Positions 8,551 to 22,012 of a stretch of DNA of 22,012 nucleotides are shown here, piece after piece. The stretch covers positions 1 to 22,012 of IMG/VR virus record IMGVR_UViG_3300047356_000073; one strand, given 5' to 3'. The stretch comes from a virus. Positions within the stretch are counted from its first letter, which is position 1; the number at the start of each line of letters is the position of its first letter. The position numbers and the translations under genes were made by a program. The notes beneath the pieces were generated by a model. That model did not search any database. It worked only from the letters and a program-made list of their open reading frames with translations, and was not told where the DNA came from.

Positions 8551-8785
8551 CTGAGGTAAATACGATCTCATACTCTGGCTCATCCTCCTCATCAAGTAAT
8601 GCAGAGACCCATACCTCTGCGAATTCTTCAACACTCAAATCTATCGTGATCCCTTCCTGCGCCCAGCCTAGAACGTAGACGTCACACTCTTGGGGATTCT
8701 TGGCGGTCGTTGCGCCGCCTATGTCTGAAGTCTTTAGCAATGCCCTGCCACCACCGGGCAAAGGACAGCTAATAATTTGGATCAC
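8537..8785 (-). CDS. Hypothetical acidic protein of the replication operon
   Basis: An 82-residue acidic protein with a hydrophobic, beta-like N-terminal half (MIQIISCPLPGGGRALL). Its C-terminus is strongly acidic (DEEDEPEYEIVFTSDDL). Family unknown. It starts with a GTG at 8785 in a GTGA overlap with the phosphoesterase stop, and GAGGTAAAGG lies upstream as ribosome site. Its coupling to the phosphoesterase hints at a joint role in DNA processing, and the acidic tail might mimic DNA or bind a partner. Both are guesses. Confidence 0.55.
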   Translation of the reverse strand: MIQIISCPLPGGGRALLKTSDIGGATTAKNPQECDVYVLGWAQEGITIDLSVEEFAEVWVSALLDEEDEPEYEIVFTSDDLH

Positions 8786-9945
8786 GCCTTTACCTCATCA
8801 ATGCCCACTTTGAATCGGCTGTGTTCGCCGTAGTTCTTATCGAGTATGACACAGGACATGGAGCGCGCGGAGCCATAACCCGATGCTGAATGGTAGGCAT
8901 CTGGGGGACATAAAACCCCAAACGATTCTAGGTGCAAGCCGCCCATCTCTGTCACAGTCCGGTGGTGTATATGACCGTGATATAAGTACCGGTATTTAGA
9001 GCGTCCCCATTCCTCTGCGTAGTCGCGAGTCACAGCCTCGTAAAGTACCTGAGTCTTAATCCTGTCGCCGTGGTGCATAACAACTAGAGTTTGCCCCCAC
9101 TCAAAATGTATCCACTTGCTAAAGTTATCAAAGACCTTTACCCGTGGTTCATTGTGGAAGTACAAGCGCATCATCTCATTCAACCAGAGACTAGCATCTG
9201 GATCGTGATTACCTCGCACGTTGATCAACCACACTTCCTTGTGCGTCTCCAACATACGAGTGATTAAAACTTTAAATAGATTGCCGACAACGCGAATTAC
9301 CCGGCCCAATCTTCCGTCAACATCGACGGGCGTGCCTTTTGCCGTTTTATTATCCCCGGAATTTGCATGCAAAAAATCTCCGAGGTTGATCAGTGCGCCT
9401 ACCTCTGCATCGCCTGCCGCCGACACTAGCTTATCGACTGCTTTAATCAGCACGTCTTGTGCGATGTTTGTATCCCAGTCATCGCCACCCGTCTCAGGGG
9501 ACCAGCAGAGCGCGTTGAGGTGGTGATCTCCGATTAAGTAGGCTGATAGCCTGTCTTCGTTTTTCGTTGCTTCTGGAGCCTTTACGGGCCTGTGAAGGCC
9601 ATCAATCTCATCTAGCAATCCAGCCTTGAAAGCTTCCAGTGCGATTTCAAGTTGTCGTTCTTTGTCACTGGCAGACTTTACCCATTGACCAACCGGCTTG
9701 CCTTCATCGTTGTAGTACGTGGAGACTCCCTTTACTAAGAAGCCATCGGGGACGGTATGAACCATGTCGTGATCGGGGGAGTGACCTTGCATAGCGGCCC
9801 TACGCTTTATGTTTTTTATAATGTCACGCGCAACCCACTTGCTTACGCCAAGCTTGTCGCCGATCTTTTGATAGCCAAGCCCCTCTAAGTGCAGAGTAAT
9901 AATTTGTGTTTGACGTTCAGTTGTACAGTAATTAAGTAAGCTCAT
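8782..9945 (-). CDS. HTH-metallophosphoesterase (SbcD/Mre11-like)
   Basis: A 387-residue two-part protein. Residues about 8-50 form a helix-turn-helix (GLGYQKIGDKLGVSKWVARD). The rest is a calcineurin-like metallophosphoesterase with all five metal-site motifs: GDHH 139-142, NLGDF 187-191, RGNHD 244-248, HHGD 291-294 and HGHIHH 323-328. Such phage enzymes are usually compared with Mre11/SbcD nucleases and probably cut or trim DNA in replication or recombination. The DNA-binding front end supports a nucleic acid substrate, but no SbcC-like partner is encoded nearby. ATG 9945 has GGGGGAACT upstream. The TGA overlaps the next gene's GTG. Confidence 0.85.
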   Translation of the reverse strand: MSLLNYCTTERQTQIITLHLEGLGYQKIGDKLGVSKWVARDIIKNIKRRAAMQGHSPDHDMVHTVPDGFLVKGVSTYYNDEGKPVGQWVKSASDKERQLEIALEAFKAGLLDEIDGLHRPVKAPEATKNEDRLSAYLIGDHHLNALCWSPETGGDDWDTNIAQDVLIKAVDKLVSAAGDAEVGALINLGDFLHANSGDNKTAKGTPVDVDGRLGRVIRVVGNLFKVLITRMLETHKEVWLINVRGNHDPDASLWLNEMMRLYFHNEPRVKVFDNFSKWIHFEWGQTLVVMHHGDRIKTQVLYEAVTRDYAEEWGRSKYRYLYHGHIHHRTVTEMGGLHLESFGVLCPPDAYHSASGYGSARSMSCVILDKNYGEHSRFKVGIDEVKA

Positions 9946-15367: not shown

Positions 15368-15595
15368 TTATTCTCCGAATGCGGCTACACAAATAGCCTG
15401 TACGTTAGCGGGTTCAGCTGAGTAGTCGTCACCTGATTGAATTACATGACGGTGATACGACTGTGAAATTACAGCGCCGTCTTCGAGTACACGAGTAACA
15501 GTCCGTACTTGAACAGAGGTAGTGGCGTTGCCGTCCTCGTCATAGCCTGTGACTACTTCGATTTTGTCTGCTGTTACTTCTTTAGTTAATGACAT
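15368..15595 (-). CDS. Conserved small protein downstream of the tail fibre
   Basis: A 75-residue protein with LTKEVTADKIEVV, then V-Q-V-R-T-V-T-R-V-L-E-D-G-A-V-I-S, then H-R-H-V-I-x-x-G-D-D-Y-S and N-V-Q-A-I-C. This pattern recurs in small marine-phage proteins found beside fibre genes. Together with the following 109-aa protein it forms a pair often seen in that position. The function is unknown: it may be a chaperone or a small structural subunit. ATG 15595 has AGGAGA seven bases upstream. The fibre stop is 47 bases before it. Confidence 0.7.
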   Translation of the reverse strand: MSLTKEVTADKIEVVTGYDEDGNATTSVQVRTVTRVLEDGAVISQSYHRHVIQSGDDYSAEPANVQAICVAAFGE

Positions 15596-15642: not shown

Positions 15643-18600
15643 TTATGCTGTTGTTTCATAAGTTAATGTAAAGCGTAAATAGCCAGCAGTAGTAGGATAC
15701 CCCATTGCTGCATAAGAGCCTGTACTGTCACTATTGCACCGTACCTGCGCCGACGTGGCATTAGCGTTAGTCATTACACACGGAGTATTATGGCCTGTTG
15801 GTATATCTAAACCAGAGTTGTATTGAAGGACTGAAATACCGGATCTATTAGCCACGGCGGCGAAGGGCAGACCGGTTATGTTTAGACTTCCTGTACCCGT
15901 CCCAGAGTCACCATAAAAAAGCATCCAAACGGTTACTACATTACCGACTTTCGTATAAGTACCGGATCTAGCGATGTTTGAGTAACTACCTGCCGTACTG
16001 CTTCCTACGACCTCAGGAGTCCACGTCCCTTCTTCATAGTCATCCAGCGTTGCACCTGTGACAGCACCGCCAGTAGTGCCGAAGACAACGCCGCCTGACA
16101 GGTAAAGGTCTTTGAAGCGCTCATCAGATTTGCCTAGGTCAGTGTTATTGTCTGTCCCGCTTCCATCACCACCACCCGGATAAATGGCGTCGTTGGCATC
16201 ATCAAATCTGAGTTTTGTGTTTCCAGTACCTATATAGAGATCGCCGCCGCTAGTACCAATGGAGCCGACTGTGGAGCCAGACTTATGAAACTCAAGGATG
16301 TCTCCGTCAGTGTTAATGCTGTTCAAGGCTAAAGTTGAAGCATCACCAGAGTCACTCTGTATTTCCACTTTTGCTGTGGTAAATGCTAAAGTCCGATTAA
16401 CCAGCAGATTCTGCGAGGCATCAATGCGGAATGCTTCGGTGCCGTTGGTATCAAAGGCCATCTTGCGTGCGCCTTCAGTCCTTAGCGTGAGAACTCCAGC
16501 GGTGTTTCTCAAGTCACCGATGTACGAGTCACCAGTAGACGAGCCGCCAACTTGGAACCGGTAGCCGTTATTCAGTACGGCGTTACCTTGAACGTCGATG
16601 CCTGTGGAGTTAACCGTCATTATGGAACTACTACCTGCCCAGAAATCCATAGCGTCGGTAGCATGGTCATAACCTATGCGGCCTACGGTGTTGGAAGCGT
16701 CATCGCCAAAGAACAAATAACCTTTCTCACCAGAGGCTGATTCAATTTGGATTCCATTATTGTCTGGAGCTAGTACGGTTAATGTTTGAGTAGGGGCGTC
16801 CGTGCCGATTCCAACATTCCCGCTAGAGTCGATGACTAAATCGTTAGCTTCTAAAGACCCATCGTCATTTCTACGAGAGATAAACAAATCCTGCGCTGAG
16901 TTATATATGCGTCTAAACTTGTTGTTAGTCCCGCCATTCTTGTCTTTGAACTGCAAATAACCGTCGTTATCTTCGATTTGAATATTGCCAGAGACAGTGA
17001 GAGTTTCTGACGGACTGCTAGTGCCGATTCCAACCAAGCCGGTTGCGGAAATGCGGAGGCGTTCGTCTCTATTTGAGGCTGTAGTTGTCCCAGTGTAAAA
17101 AGACAGGCCATAGGCTCCACCTACAGCTGACTCAGAAACAGAAGCAATCTCGCCAGTAATCCCGTCAGAATATGTTCCGGTATAAGAAGCATCGCTAGTG
17201 ATAAAACTAAGTGCGCCAGCTTTTTCACCTGTAGTAAGACCAGAGTCTGTACCGCCAATGCTTAAAACTGGACTACTACCGCCAGTAACCAAAGAGGCAG
17301 GAGAAGTCGTACCGATACCTACCTTGCCGTCTGATTTGATACGCATGGCTTCGACAATGTTGTTTGTGCCTGACTGTCGTGTTGCAAAAGTTAATGTACC
17401 GGCAGAGTTTGATAATCCGTTTTCGTTAATAACAGAGATTGATGCAGTAGATGAAAACGAAGTCCCTGAATTTAACTCTAAAGAAGCGAAAGTACCTGCT
17501 GTATTGCTTTCGTTAATTACTTGAACAGCACCACCAGCATTAAATGATTTGCTAGTTGCGTAAGCAATTGTAGATGTATGAGCTACAGATAATGGAAAGC
17601 TTGGGTCGTCCGTACCGATACCTACGTTACCGCCATTAGGTTGAACAAGAAGGTCATAAGTAGTAGCCGCGCCGTCAAACCGCTGTTGTTGTATATAGCC
17701 GTTACCAGAGCCTAGCGTACCAATCATAGTGCCGTACTGGTCGTTCTTACCTACAGCAAAGTGTGATGAATCAGCACCTGCGGCAGGCACAGTGGTTACG
17801 CTTGCGGCCATTACAGTTAACGGTGACGCTGGGTTGCTCGTGCCGATTCCTACGTTGCTTCCTGAGTTAAAATAAGTGCTGACGCCACTATGCGCAGAAA
17901 TTCTAACGTCCTCGTTACTTCCCGAATCATAAACAGAAAGAATGCCATTATATGATTCTGTTCTAGCTTTAAAGCGCAAGTCTCCAGCCGAAGTACCGCT
18001 GGAAATTTGAACGCCTGTACCACTAGAGCCTAGATTTACTACGCTCAGGGTGTCACTAGGCGAGTCCGTGCCGATGCCTACGTTGCCGCCGTTGAAGTAA
18101 GAATTTCCGGCACTTCTTATAAGAACCTTTACTGCATCGTTTTTATCATATAAGGACAATGAACCATCGTCGTCGCTATCAGTGTTAATGACTGCACGAA
18201 CACCGCCAGAACTGCTAAAACGAGCAAGGTTTTCTGAGTCAGTCCCTGCGGACTCTACGTCTAATACATATGCTGGACTGCTAGTGCCGATGCCTAACCG
18301 CTCATCAGCGGCATCCCAGTGGAACTTCGGAGTCGCGCCCGTGTCCTCAAACAGCTCGACATCGCCGTTGGCAGATATTCTTAGTCGAGTTGTTGCAAAA
18401 TCGTTAGCGCCCGTAACAAAGTTAAATGACCCAGAGGCGTCAGTGGCCCTGATGTAGTTAGTACCTGCTCGTGCGAAGTTTAACGAACTAGTGTTAGTCG
18501 GGATGGTAATGTCGCCTTGCGAAGTCTGGACAGTCAAACCATCAACAGTCACTGTGCCAGTAACATCAAGACCATCGGTTGACAGTGGCCCACCAGCCAA

Positions 18601-21063
18601 AGACCAAGCGCCATCATAAGTTAGTGAGGCATCGTCGGTTTCAATTACAATGTAACCAGCAGTCTGAGGCTGGTTCGTATTAACCCCGCTGGCATTAATG
18701 TGGATGGTGTTATCGGCATCAGCTCCAGCCAAATAACCAAGAGCAATCGCGTCATTGCCTAAAGAATCAGCTCCGTAACCAACGGCAGTGGAGTTATTTC
18801 CAGTAGCATCGCTATTACTGCCGAGAGCCGTGGCATAAGAATATGCTGATGAGCCATAACCAAGAGCTGTAGAGTAATCCCCGTTATCAGCTAAAGAATC
18901 TCTACCGATAGCCGTTCCAAATGAACTGGTATTACTGACTCTCGCGTTGTTACCAATAGCCACGCCACCTATGCTATTTGCTTGTGCCGAGTAACCAATA
19001 GCAACGCCATTTATGTTAGTAGCTGAAGTAATAGCCCCTCCACCTATTGCGACTCCTCCCGACGCTAAAGATTGCGACGTGACCCCAATTGAAATGGAAT
19101 AGGTGTTTAGAGCGTTTGCAGACGTTCCAATTCCTATTGAATCACCAGAACCAGCAACAGCGCCCCACCCAATACCAATAGCTTTTTGACCGGCTACCGT
19201 TAACTGTCTGCCAATGGCAATCCCGTTGTCGTTATTTGCTTCAGCTCCATAACCAATAGCAAGGGTTTGTGCGCCAGAAGCAACAGCGGCCTCGCCCATA
19301 GAAATGCCATAAGCTCCGCTACTTTCCGTGTCGCGTCCAATTGCAATGGGTACTCCTAAGCCGGTTGCACTGGCAGATTTACCAACCGCAATAGAACCTG
19401 TGACTGTAGCCTCAGAATCCGCACCAATAGCAATCGAAAAGCTGTCGCTTGCGTTAGCACTTGTCCCAATAGCTATAGAGCTAACACCCGTCGTTGTCGG
19501 AGCATTGCCTATTGCAATGTTGCTAGACCCTCCTGATGAAGCGTTTTGCCCTATTGAAATGGCTTGGAGATTTAGAGCTTGGGCCGAGTTGCCTAATGCT
19601 ACTGTACCGTTATTGCTGGCATTAGAGCCGTAACCAACGGCAGTGGAGTTAGCTCCAGTAGCATCTGCATTACTGCCAACAGCCGTGGCATAGGTTGCCG
19701 CTTCTGAGCTATAACCCAAAGCTGTCGCATAACTCCCTGAGTCTGCATTAGAGTTTCTGCCTAAAGCCGTACCAAATTGCGAGTTTGATCTTGCAGTATT
19801 TCCAATAGCAACACTGCCGCTTTGATTTGCCGTTGCGCCATAGCCAATAGCAACGCCGTTTATGTTATTTACGTCAGACGTTGCGGATGAACCTATGACA
19901 ATAGAGCCTAGATTTCCAGCGGCAGAGTTAGCGCCTATGGAAATAGTATGATTGTAACCAGCGTCTGCTAATCGCCCAATCGCAATGGCGTTCTCGTTAT
20001 TTGCCTCTGCACCGTGACCAATGCCTATCGCGTTTGTCCCAGTAGTGGTTAATTGACGCCCAATAGCAATGGAGTCTGGACCCGAAGAAGTAGCAGTGTC
20101 ACCAATTGATACGCTTTGATTTCCACTAGCCGCTGTATTCGGCCCTAAAGATATGCCGGATATTCCGGTGCTTAATGCGCTATAGCCGATTGCAACCGGA
20201 CTACCACCTGCACCGTTAAGAGTAGAAGCATCCTCACCAATAGCAATTGAAGTGGAAAGTGTAGATTGCGCTCCTTTACCAACGGCAATGGATCGAACAC
20301 CAGTTGAGTCTGTTTCTTGACCAATGGCAATTGACCCGCCTCCAGAAGCAACCGCATCAAGGCCTAATGCAATATCCCTAGCGGCAGTAGCACTAGCATC
20401 ATGGCCTAAAGCAATTGAATCTGTGCCAGAAGAAACAGCATCACTACCGATATTAAAGCTGTCTGTATTTGGATCAAATCCGGGTGGTTGAGCGCCTATC
20501 TCTTGCAGTGCGCCTTCAACATTATCGGAGGTGTAATAGCCGCCAGCATCTTCAATTGACACATCATCCGCATCAACATCGGTCGTTACACCTGCCGCCA
20601 AATCAACTGCGCCATTTGCATCAAACTTCATAAACTTGTTTGCGCGAGTAGCCGCCTCGGGTAGCTCCATCGAGATAGAGTCAGAGTCGGTAATAGGCTT
20701 GCGGATAGACTGTGAGAATGAGCGGTCAGTCTGCTCACCTGCTAACCACAGATCATCAAAGTCACTGTTTACTTCAGAGGCTAGGAAGTCACCAGAGTTT
20801 GTATAGTTCTGTGTGCGAGAGTAGGGCATGTCACGATACAGGGTCAGTACGTCGCCTGTGGTCGCTCCTACAGTCAGAGTGACGTTTCCACCACTATCAT
20901 TGCCTACGTTCGACACAGAGTAATTGGTGCCTTCTGAAAGGGCTACGCCGTTCTTCAGCACGACAATGTGGCTCTTGTCTACGATCTCGAACGTATACGC
21001 GAATACCGTCTGACCAGAAGTTGCGGCATATTGGTTACGGCTTGTGTTGTCTGCTACTGTCAT
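15643..21063 (-). CDS. Giant tail fibre with YadA-type head repeats
   Basis: A 1806-residue fibre. Residues 1-150 match the T7 tail-fibre N-terminal domain that attaches to the tail (NTSRNQYAATSGQTVFAYTF, then V-L-K-N-G-V, L-Y-R-D-M-P). About 200-790 holds dozens of S-I-A-I-G-x-x-A-x-A-x-G repeats, the left-handed beta-roll pattern of YadA-type trimeric adhesin heads, arranged as two super-repeats about 283 residues apart. About 850-1660 carries repeated N-V-G-I-G-T-x-x-P-S-x-x-L-x-V units. The C-terminal domain begins at A-T-L-D-D-Y-E-E-G-T-W-T-P (1671) and includes TKVGNVVTVWMLFYGD and I-T-G-L-P-F-A-A, typical of receptor-binding tips. I see no S74 chaperone peptidase. It would bind host surface structures as a trimer. 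ATG 21063 overlaps the preceding TGA, with GGAGACTT upstream. Confidence 0.9.
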   Translation of the reverse strand: MTVADNTSRNQYAATSGQTVFAYTFEIVDKSHIVVLKNGVALSEGTNYSVSNVGNDSGGNVTLTVGATTGDVLTLYRDMPYSRTQNYTNSGDFLASEVNSDFDDLWLAGEQTDRSFSQSIRKPITDSDSISMELPEAATRANKFMKFDANGAVDLAAGVTTDVDADDVSIEDAGGYYTSDNVEGALQEIGAQPPGFDPNTDSFNIGSDAVSSGTDSIALGHDASATAARDIALGLDAVASGGGSIAIGQETDSTGVRSIAVGKGAQSTLSTSIAIGEDASTLNGAGGSPVAIGYSALSTGISGISLGPNTAASGNQSVSIGDTATSSGPDSIAIGRQLTTTGTNAIGIGHGAEANNENAIAIGRLADAGYNHTISIGANSAAGNLGSIVIGSSATSDVNNINGVAIGYGATANQSGSVAIGNTARSNSQFGTALGRNSNADSGSYATALGYSSEAATYATAVGSNADATGANSTAVGYGSNASNNGTVALGNSAQALNLQAISIGQNASSGGSSNIAIGNAPTTTGVSSIAIGTSANASDSFSIAIGADSEATVTGSIAVGKSASATGLGVPIAIGRDTESSGAYGISMGEAAVASGAQTLAIGYGAEANNDNGIAIGRQLTVAGQKAIGIGWGAVAGSGDSIGIGTSANALNTYSISIGVTSQSLASGGVAIGGGAITSATNINGVAIGYSAQANSIGGVAIGNNARVSNTSSFGTAIGRDSLADNGDYSTALGYGSSAYSYATALGSNSDATGNNSTAVGYGADSLGNDAIALGYLAGADADNTIHINASGVNTNQPQTAGYIVIETDDASLTYDGAWSLAGGPLSTDGLDVTGTVTVDGLTVQTSQGDITIPTNTSSLNFARAGTNYIRATDASGSFNFVTGANDFATTRLRISANGDVELFEDTGATPKFHWDAADERLGIGTSSPAYVLDVESAGTDSENLARFSSSGGVRAVINTDSDDDGSLSLYDKNDAVKVLIRSAGNSYFNGGNVGIGTDSPSDTLSVVNLGSSGTGVQISSGTSAGDLRFKARTESYNGILSVYDSGSNEDVRISAHSGVSTYFNSGSNVGIGTSNPASPLTVMAASVTTVPAAGADSSHFAVGKNDQYGTMIGTLGSGNGYIQQQRFDGAATTYDLLVQPNGGNVGIGTDDPSFPLSVAHTSTIAYATSKSFNAGGAVQVINESNTAGTFASLELNSGTSFSSTASISVINENGLSNSAGTLTFATRQSGTNNIVEAMRIKSDGKVGIGTTSPASLVTGGSSPVLSIGGTDSGLTTGEKAGALSFITSDASYTGTYSDGITGEIASVSESAVGGAYGLSFYTGTTTASNRDERLRISATGLVGIGTSSPSETLTVSGNIQIEDNDGYLQFKDKNGGTNNKFRRIYNSAQDLFISRRNDDGSLEANDLVIDSSGNVGIGTDAPTQTLTVLAPDNNGIQIESASGEKGYLFFGDDASNTVGRIGYDHATDAMDFWAGSSSIMTVNSTGIDVQGNAVLNNGYRFQVGGSSTGDSYIGDLRNTAGVLTLRTEGARKMAFDTNGTEAFRIDASQNLLVNRTLAFTTAKVEIQSDSGDASTLALNSINTDGDILEFHKSGSTVGSIGTSGGDLYIGTGNTKLRFDDANDAIYPGGGDGSGTDNNTDLGKSDERFKDLYLSGGVVFGTTGGAVTGATLDDYEEGTWTPEVVGSSTAGSYSNIARSGTYTKVGNVVTVWMLFYGDSGTGTGSLNITGLPFAAVANRSGISVLQYNSGLDIPTGHNTPCVMTNANATSAQVRCNSDSTGSYAAMGYPTTAGYLRFTLTYETTA
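18700..20452 (-). repeat. Tandem super-repeat in the fibre gene
   Basis: Two units of about 850 bp encode the YadA-like region. Examples: INGVAIGY at residue 401 and again at 684; IAIGRQL at 332 and 615; NSTAVGYG at 472 and 757. The bases around 18780-18840 and 19632-19690 (plus-strand view) are nearly the same. The shared offset of about 283 residues shows duplication of a large block rather than only the short 14-residue repeat. It may shorten or lengthen by recombination. Confidence 0.7.
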
Positions 21064-22012
21064 AAGTCTCCAACCTCTTTCTCTATTCTATCAAAGGCCT
21101 GACGAATAAACGTAAGATTTTGATAGGGGATTAGTCTCCGCAATGCGCGGGTGTCTGATTCGTTCCATCCGTCCTCTGCCAGACCAGCGTTAGCCACCCT
21201 TAAAGACGTATCCAAAAAGCTCCCGAATGTGGGGCCAAGTAAGTTTTCCGACATACTACGTGAGGCAAAGCGAGCCGCCGGAATGTCTACACCCAGCAAT
21301 GGGCGCATTCCAAAGTTATTGCTCGATAGCTTCTCAAGCGTGTTGTTGATTTCCATGATCCCGCCAAGCGCACCTGATCTATCAATGCCCTCAATCACTA
21401 GCTCAACCGGGTCTTCCGCAATCTCTCGCTTTGCATCCCATTGCTTGAACGAGTAGGACATCATGCCCAAGCTAGTCAGCATCAATACGCCAGCCAAAGC
21501 GTTGTGATCCTGAGACTGTAACGCCGCGATAGTCATGCGTTGAGTCGATGCAAACATGAACGAGCGGAATTGAAAGATCGTCTTGCCTAGCTCTGTTGAC
21601 ATGAACAAGGGCTTTTCTTGGCCGGGGACTACGATCACGCGGTCAGACTCTTTACGAATCGCCGCGCCCCAAAGCCTTTCTAGTTCTGGAGAGTCCCAGT
21701 TACGAGCATTGGATAAATAAACTCCATCAACCTTGGTCGCATATTTCTTTAGCTCTGCGGCCATTGCTTGTGCGTTACCGTCATCAATACCAAGACGGGC
21801 CAGACGCTTATCAACCTTGCCTTTCAGTAGTCCATCAATAACGCTGTTTTGCATGGTTACGGCATGGAGCTGTTTAACCCCGGTCGTCCAGTAGTCCATG
21901 AGGTTTACGCGGCCAAAGTTATCAGTGGCGTACTGGATGCCTCTCTCGAATGCTGTGTTTGGTTGCGTGTAATCCGTTACGTCTGCAATGATCTGCGACC
22001 GACCGCCCATAA
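21060..22012 (-). CDS. Internal virion protein, C-terminal part (partial)
   Basis: Only the last 316 residues or so are inside the window. The frame is open to the right end, and the first ATG at 22010 is probably internal. The text reads like the C-terminus of very large podophage virion proteins ejected into the host: helical, with ELGKTIFQFRSFMFASTQRM, a short hydrophobic stretch (NALAGVLMLTSLGMMSYSF), EDPVELVIEGIDRSGALGGI, and the end LRRLIPYQNLTFIRQAFDRI. The L-I-P-[YF]-Q-N-L-x-[FY]-[IL]-R ending is recurrent in such proteins. It may carry a lytic transglycosylase or other domain outside the window. Its TGA overlaps the fibre ATG, so both are made together. Confidence 0.65.
   Translation of the reverse strand, partial: MGGRSQIIADVTDYTQPNTAFERGIQYATDNFGRVNLMDYWTTGVKQLHAVTMQNSVIDGLLKGKVDKRLARLGIDDGNAQAMAAELKKYATKVDGVYLSNARNWDSPELERLWGAAIRKESDRVIVVPGQEKPLFMSTELGKTIFQFRSFMFASTQRMTIAALQSQDHNALAGVLMLTSLGMMSYSFKQWDAKREIAEDPVELVIEGIDRSGALGGIMEINNTLEKLSSNNFGMRPLLGVDIPAARFASRSMSENLLGPTFGSFLDTSLRVANAGLAEDGWNESDTRALRRLIPYQNLTFIRQAFDRIEKEVGDL

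Follow-up and report, generated by a model that had tools for sequence, protein, structure and literature searches.

A fibre joining a T7-like N-terminus to a trimeric-adhesin head was described by Mizuno et al. in 2014: in an uncultured pelagiphage-type fibre of cluster C24, from a marine podovirus, the T7-like N-terminus is combined with repeats and a YadA-like domain that matches 3S6L (PMC3909814). The YadA region of that fibre under-recruits metagenomic reads (PMC3909814). YadA-domain structural proteins have also been reported from cyanophage virions, S-TIM4 ORF108 and S-SZBM1_54, and tied to host adaptation (PMC6224464, PMC9146016), and one such cyanophage protein had mutated in every population passaged on different hosts (PMC6224464); among pelagimyophages, YadA domains are listed with the host-recognition domains. 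In the open-access literature, we found no cryo-EM study of a phage fibre of YadA type. The fibre analysed here shares with the C24 protein a T7-like N-terminal domain and a YadA domain in one polypeptide. In C24, however, the YadA domain is C-terminal, whereas here 41 coils fill the inner half, and about 1000 residues comprising distal modules and a tip come after them. The two cyanophage proteins, likened by description, are likewise virion structural proteins with a domain of YadA type, but are myoviral and not podoviral. Considering the 2014 pelagiphage fibre and the cyanophage proteins, the present fibre therefore varies something known: the combination of a T7-like N-terminus with YadA is established, and the novelty lies in the internal position and length of the array, in its variation by whole coils, and in a distal half that can be exchanged. 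The rarity of adhesin head repeats in phages, implied by the original prediction, was accordingly overstated, as such arrays occur commonly in proteins of phages and giant viruses and have the precedent above.

The window, meaning the whole stretch of DNA analysed, is the 22,012-base IMG/VR virus record IMGVR_UViG_3300047356_000073 (GC 0.49). The tail fibre gene lies on its minus strand at 15643..21063, exactly where it was originally placed, and encodes 1806 aa from an ATG start, without an internal stop. It adjoins the C-terminal part of an internal virion protein gene (21060..22010, minus strand; phrog_342, E=4e-40), which runs off the window. The minus strand also carries genes for the major head protein, head-tail adaptor, terminase large subunit and exonuclease. 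The terminase large subunit aligns over 99% of its length with that of Burkholderia phage BcepC6B, at 50% identity, and the head-tail adaptor and terminase match the marine podoviruses MEP301 and Hodr. From this gene content and the matches to BcepC6B, MEP301 and Hodr, the window represents a podovirus of marine type.

Residues 1-124 (20692..21063, minus strand) form a podoviral fibre attachment domain, matching phrog_1640 (tail protein) with E=6e-26. Residues 5-149 of T7 gp17 match the same phrog_1640 positions (E=7e-21), and solved homologues are found in orf22 of PDB 9efk and in the tailspikes Dpo31/Dpo36. On the other hand, the Pfam T7 tail model PF03906 gave no match to the fibre at E<=1, and among 32 relatives searched it matched a single one (E=0.08). 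The predicted 'T7 fibre attachment domain' hence stands as a phage fibre attachment domain through phrog_1640 and the PDB homologues, with an indirect T7 link that holds via the shared PHROG and fails via PF03906; judged on these profile matches, the 'T7-type' label seems right at superfamily level, not as PF03906 membership. With T7 gp17 the fibre has in common the N-terminal phrog_1640 domain and a gene adjoining that of an internal virion protein; gp17 differs in having 553 aa and no YadA array, in addition to the PF03906 discrepancy. The linker that follows (residues 125-201; 20461..20691, minus strand) contains a junction motif, YYTSDNVEGALQEIGA, common to relatives bearing other shafts.

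Residues 202-785 (18709..20460, minus strand) constitute the YadA-head array, in which the pattern xIAIGxxAxA recurs over 584 residues and 41 coils at a spacing of 14 residues, with occasional spacings of 13, 15, 16 or 17. The roughly 590 residues of YadA-type repeats foreseen are close to this length. Pfam YadA_head (PF05658) matched 15 stretches with 166.8 bits against a cut-off of 25 (E=7.4e-50), and the identity autocorrelation reached z=12 at lag 14 and z=9.4 at lag 28 relative to composition shuffles; the same measure revealed no clear periodicity elsewhere in the fibre. Among sequences of solved structures in the PDB, the array came closest to YadA (1p9h) and BpaC (7o23).

Residues 151-860 were then modelled as a single chain with AlphaFold2 (five models), with three sequences in the alignment. 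The mean pLDDT is 70, exceeding 90 at roughly residues 480-640 and dropping to 50-60 for some of the inner coils. Despite this uneven confidence, each 14-residue turn along the whole array shows two short strands. Foldseek against the PDB returned BpaC at E=1e-7 and the heads of CbpF, BoaA, YadA and AtaA at E=3e-3 to 1e-2; the best matches are all trimeric-adhesin heads, with low TM-scores for the full array. Against viral models, many proteins named YadA-like were recovered, from uncultured phages, Pithovirus, Klosneuvirus and Clandestinovirus. The beta-roll is thus backed by the Pfam, sequence and structure matches, its left-handedness being read off the matching structures. Another fold, or weak repeat periodicity, had been named in advance as speaking against the prediction; with adhesin heads matched by the single-chain model and z=12, it thus passed that test.

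Within the array, an inner segment (19628..19867, minus strand) and an outer segment (18773..19018, minus strand), about 283 residues apart, share 72% DNA identity and are the two copies of an old internal duplication of part of the array. Past the last coil, the segment of residues 786-836 (18556..18708, minus strand) contains NTIHINASG and is the last part common to the relative L082, described below. A search for relatives through this segment returned only L082's own contig.

Further out, the distal stretch (residues 837-1647; 16121..18555, minus strand) holds seven GIGTxxP motifs between residues 923 and 1417, spaced by 72-101 residues, where 2000 shuffles gave at most one. The motifs behind the predicted repeated V-G-I-G-T-x-x-P-S units are therefore real, but they mark irregular modules and no strict tandem repeat. 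The tail-fibre family phrog_18345 matches residues 1282-1604. The C-terminal tip domain (residues 1674-1806; 15646..16044, minus strand), anticipated as compact, was modelled with confidence (residues 1610-1806, 61 sequences, pLDDT 87) as a jelly-roll; similar structures are the Dettilon tailspike's C-terminal domain and Noumeavirus NMV_189. It is widespread and is the terminal domain in most of the relatives found that bear it. Their alignment reveals a conserved frame, with DDYEEGTW and single Y, G and P residues invariant, and variable loops. No Pfam family matched the tip; likewise, no Pfam match to a C-terminal peptidase S74 domain was obtained in the fibre, the protein ending in the EGTW tip domain.

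Comparison with record G001 (L082, L091 and L092, with L082 and L094 being one contig) revealed how this protein varies. Its DNA is 97-98% identical to the window over long blocks and 87-91% in others. Fibre residues 1-836 are shared at 93% DNA identity (L091/L092), whereas residues 837-1647 are essentially unrelated. Past residue 1647, identity resumes at 86% over 106 bases (residues 1648-1683; 16015..16120, minus strand), within RFKDLYLSGG...DDYEEGTW, and is followed by a different tip and then, after the fibre stop, by sequence of 97% DNA identity. The 106-base stretch is a likely recombination anchor. The array of L082 is exactly one 14-residue coil shorter than that of the window. In another contig, L083, coils 1-7 and 9-13 match the window and about 15 different coils replace coil 8, making the array longer by about 14 coils. 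The presence of the array, intact, in these two other contigs rules out an assembly artefact, as the uninterrupted reading frame does a pseudogene.

The internal virion proteins upstream of the fibre are also of unrelated types in the window and G001. With both the distal half and the internal virion protein replaced, the attachment-plus-array half behaves as a cassette between two exchangeable neighbours. The two internal virion protein types (window 21060-22010 and L082:3008-7405) are shuffled among the fibre relatives, and unrelated types occur in phages whose fibre half is the same and whose head genes are nearly identical. By eye, the relatives' protein (L082:3008-7405, L083:1321-5925) shows, close to the N-terminus, a stretch like that of an ADP-ribosyltransferase, KAYHGSPY...GTGEGAQAYGYGLYFAE, with an insertion in L083. 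Elsewhere in the window, the best G001 match of the exonuclease gene (8782-9945) reaches only 40% identity, with neighbouring blocks at 87-98%, and this gene is another exchanged one. The small ORF after the fibre (15368-15595) displays few differences from G001, most of which change the amino acid (2.5 synonymous v 5.5 non-synonymous).

A related attachment domain was found at 80 loci, among which only the L082/L094 contig and L083 have long coil arrays. Four loci (L096, L101, L110 and L112) have the same attachment domain and linker and carry, by sequence, pectate-lyase-like spike segments in the array slot; the L112 contig ends as an array starts after this segment. IMG/VR was also searched with a degenerate two-coil DNA pattern, the three-coil alignment being too variable for a pattern, which yielded 94 stretches. 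Among the 80 loci read from this search, one, L286, unites the same attachment-domain family (E=1.9e-19) with a YadA-type array, differing by a shorter array near the C-terminus and another C-terminal domain; it is an independent podoviral fibre. The window's tip domain was absent from all loci read. Looking for YadA heads in other phage fibres, as originally proposed, thus recovered L286, L082 and L083, together with the phage and giant-virus proteins above. Seven further loci (L261, L268, L290, L299, L300, L332 and L335) have ORFs with MNKVYKVIWNAS-type adhesin signal regions, and are probably bacterial adhesin genes beside prophages.

Aggregated, we consider it probable that in this podovirus tail fibre a beta-roll shaft of variable length carries a distal half that binds the receptor and can be exchanged. 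Residues 1-124 would, as in their family, dock the trimer to the short tail. Residues 202-785 of each chain would fold into a 41-turn left-handed beta-roll of YadA type, and three rolls side by side, by analogy with the solved YadA heads, would make a stiff shaft, very roughly 20 nm long by our estimate (41 turns of ~0.48 nm). The beta-roll may then serve as a length-adjustable spacer in which whole coils are gained or lost with the fold intact. The distal half, with its GIGTxxP modules and jelly-roll tip, most likely makes the specific host contact, the tip being the presumed main receptor-binding part, and would be exchanged between phages by recombination at the array end and at the RFKDLYLSGG/EGTW stretch.

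It is possible, yet in our judgement rather doubtful, that the array is itself a receptor-binding surface, as in YadA and CbpF, and more than a spacer, its exposed coil positions touching host surface molecules and the coil number setting the number of contacts. The evidence for this is circumstantial. Between the window and L082, dN/dS is about 0.75 in the array, compared to 0.076 in the attachment domain and 0-0.04 in the terminase, head-tail adaptor, ORF 1076-1822, head protein and holin (array versus these five genes pooled, p=2e-25); such a value exceeds what a passive spacer strictly needs, and hence counts against the shaft reading. Amino-acid changes moreover gather on non-motif coil positions. 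Positions 5, 6, 8, 11, 12 and 13 are changed in 38 of 238 codons and the rest in 11 of 320 (p=3e-7), a split chosen after the counts had been seen, which weakens it. With the split set by the array motif, the consensus core (positions 1-4, 7 and 9) is changed in 9 of 240 codons versus 40 of 318 others (p=2e-4). Synonymous changes show no concentration on the non-motif positions. The cyanophage YadA-domain protein mutated in every host-passaged population (PMC6224464) and the low read recruitment at the pelagiphage YadA region (PMC3909814) point in the same direction. However, relaxed constraint on exposed spacer residues or recombination of divergent coils yields the same pattern, and wholesale exchange sits in the distal half, not in the array. 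The pattern thus fits relaxed constraint on a spacer surface, recombinational import of coils, or host contact.

A combination of the two, which we regard as unlikely, would be a tunable adsorption module, in which coils added or removed set the reach, exposed positions diversify through touching the host, and length, surface and tip vary independently.

That the protein is instead a long tailspike-type enzyme, with an unrecognised enzymatic fold in the distal half, we hold to be improbable. Judged by sequence, relatives sharing this attachment domain and linker do have pectate-lyase-like tailspike segments in the slot, and the attachment domain is also found on the tailspikes Dpo31/Dpo36. Against this, no enzyme family was matched in Pfam or PHROG searches, and the distal part matches the tail-fibre family phrog_18345 and not a catalytic fold. 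Finally, that the phage recently acquired all or part of a trimeric autotransporter adhesin gene from a bacterium is very improbable: bacterial adhesin heads, which share the 14-residue coil and beta-roll (YadA, BpaC and BoaA; 1p9h, 7o23 and 3s6l), are indeed the solved structures closest to the array in both sequence and fold, but these adhesins are outer-membrane-anchored, whereas here YadA_head is the sole Pfam match at E<=1, with no C-terminal YadA membrane anchor, stalk or neck domain; the N-terminus is, by its domain matches, a phage fibre attachment domain and not an adhesin signal region; no close bacterial relative was found (best 27% identity, Aureisphaera) in a scan with six short peptide patterns of one genome per species across 84,980 prokaryote species, which reaches near relatives only; and arrays of this type are spread through phage and giant-virus proteins.

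Returning to the shaft with its exchangeable distal half, a bacterial-adhesin-type roll, usually seen as a binding head, is here placed mid-fibre as a shaft. Across the attachment-domain family, one and the same slot is filled by beta-rolls, by pectate-lyase-like spikes or by shafts of S74 type. The natural series at hand, with one coil fewer, about 14 more, or the distal half swapped, lets spacer length and receptor specificity be separated experimentally.
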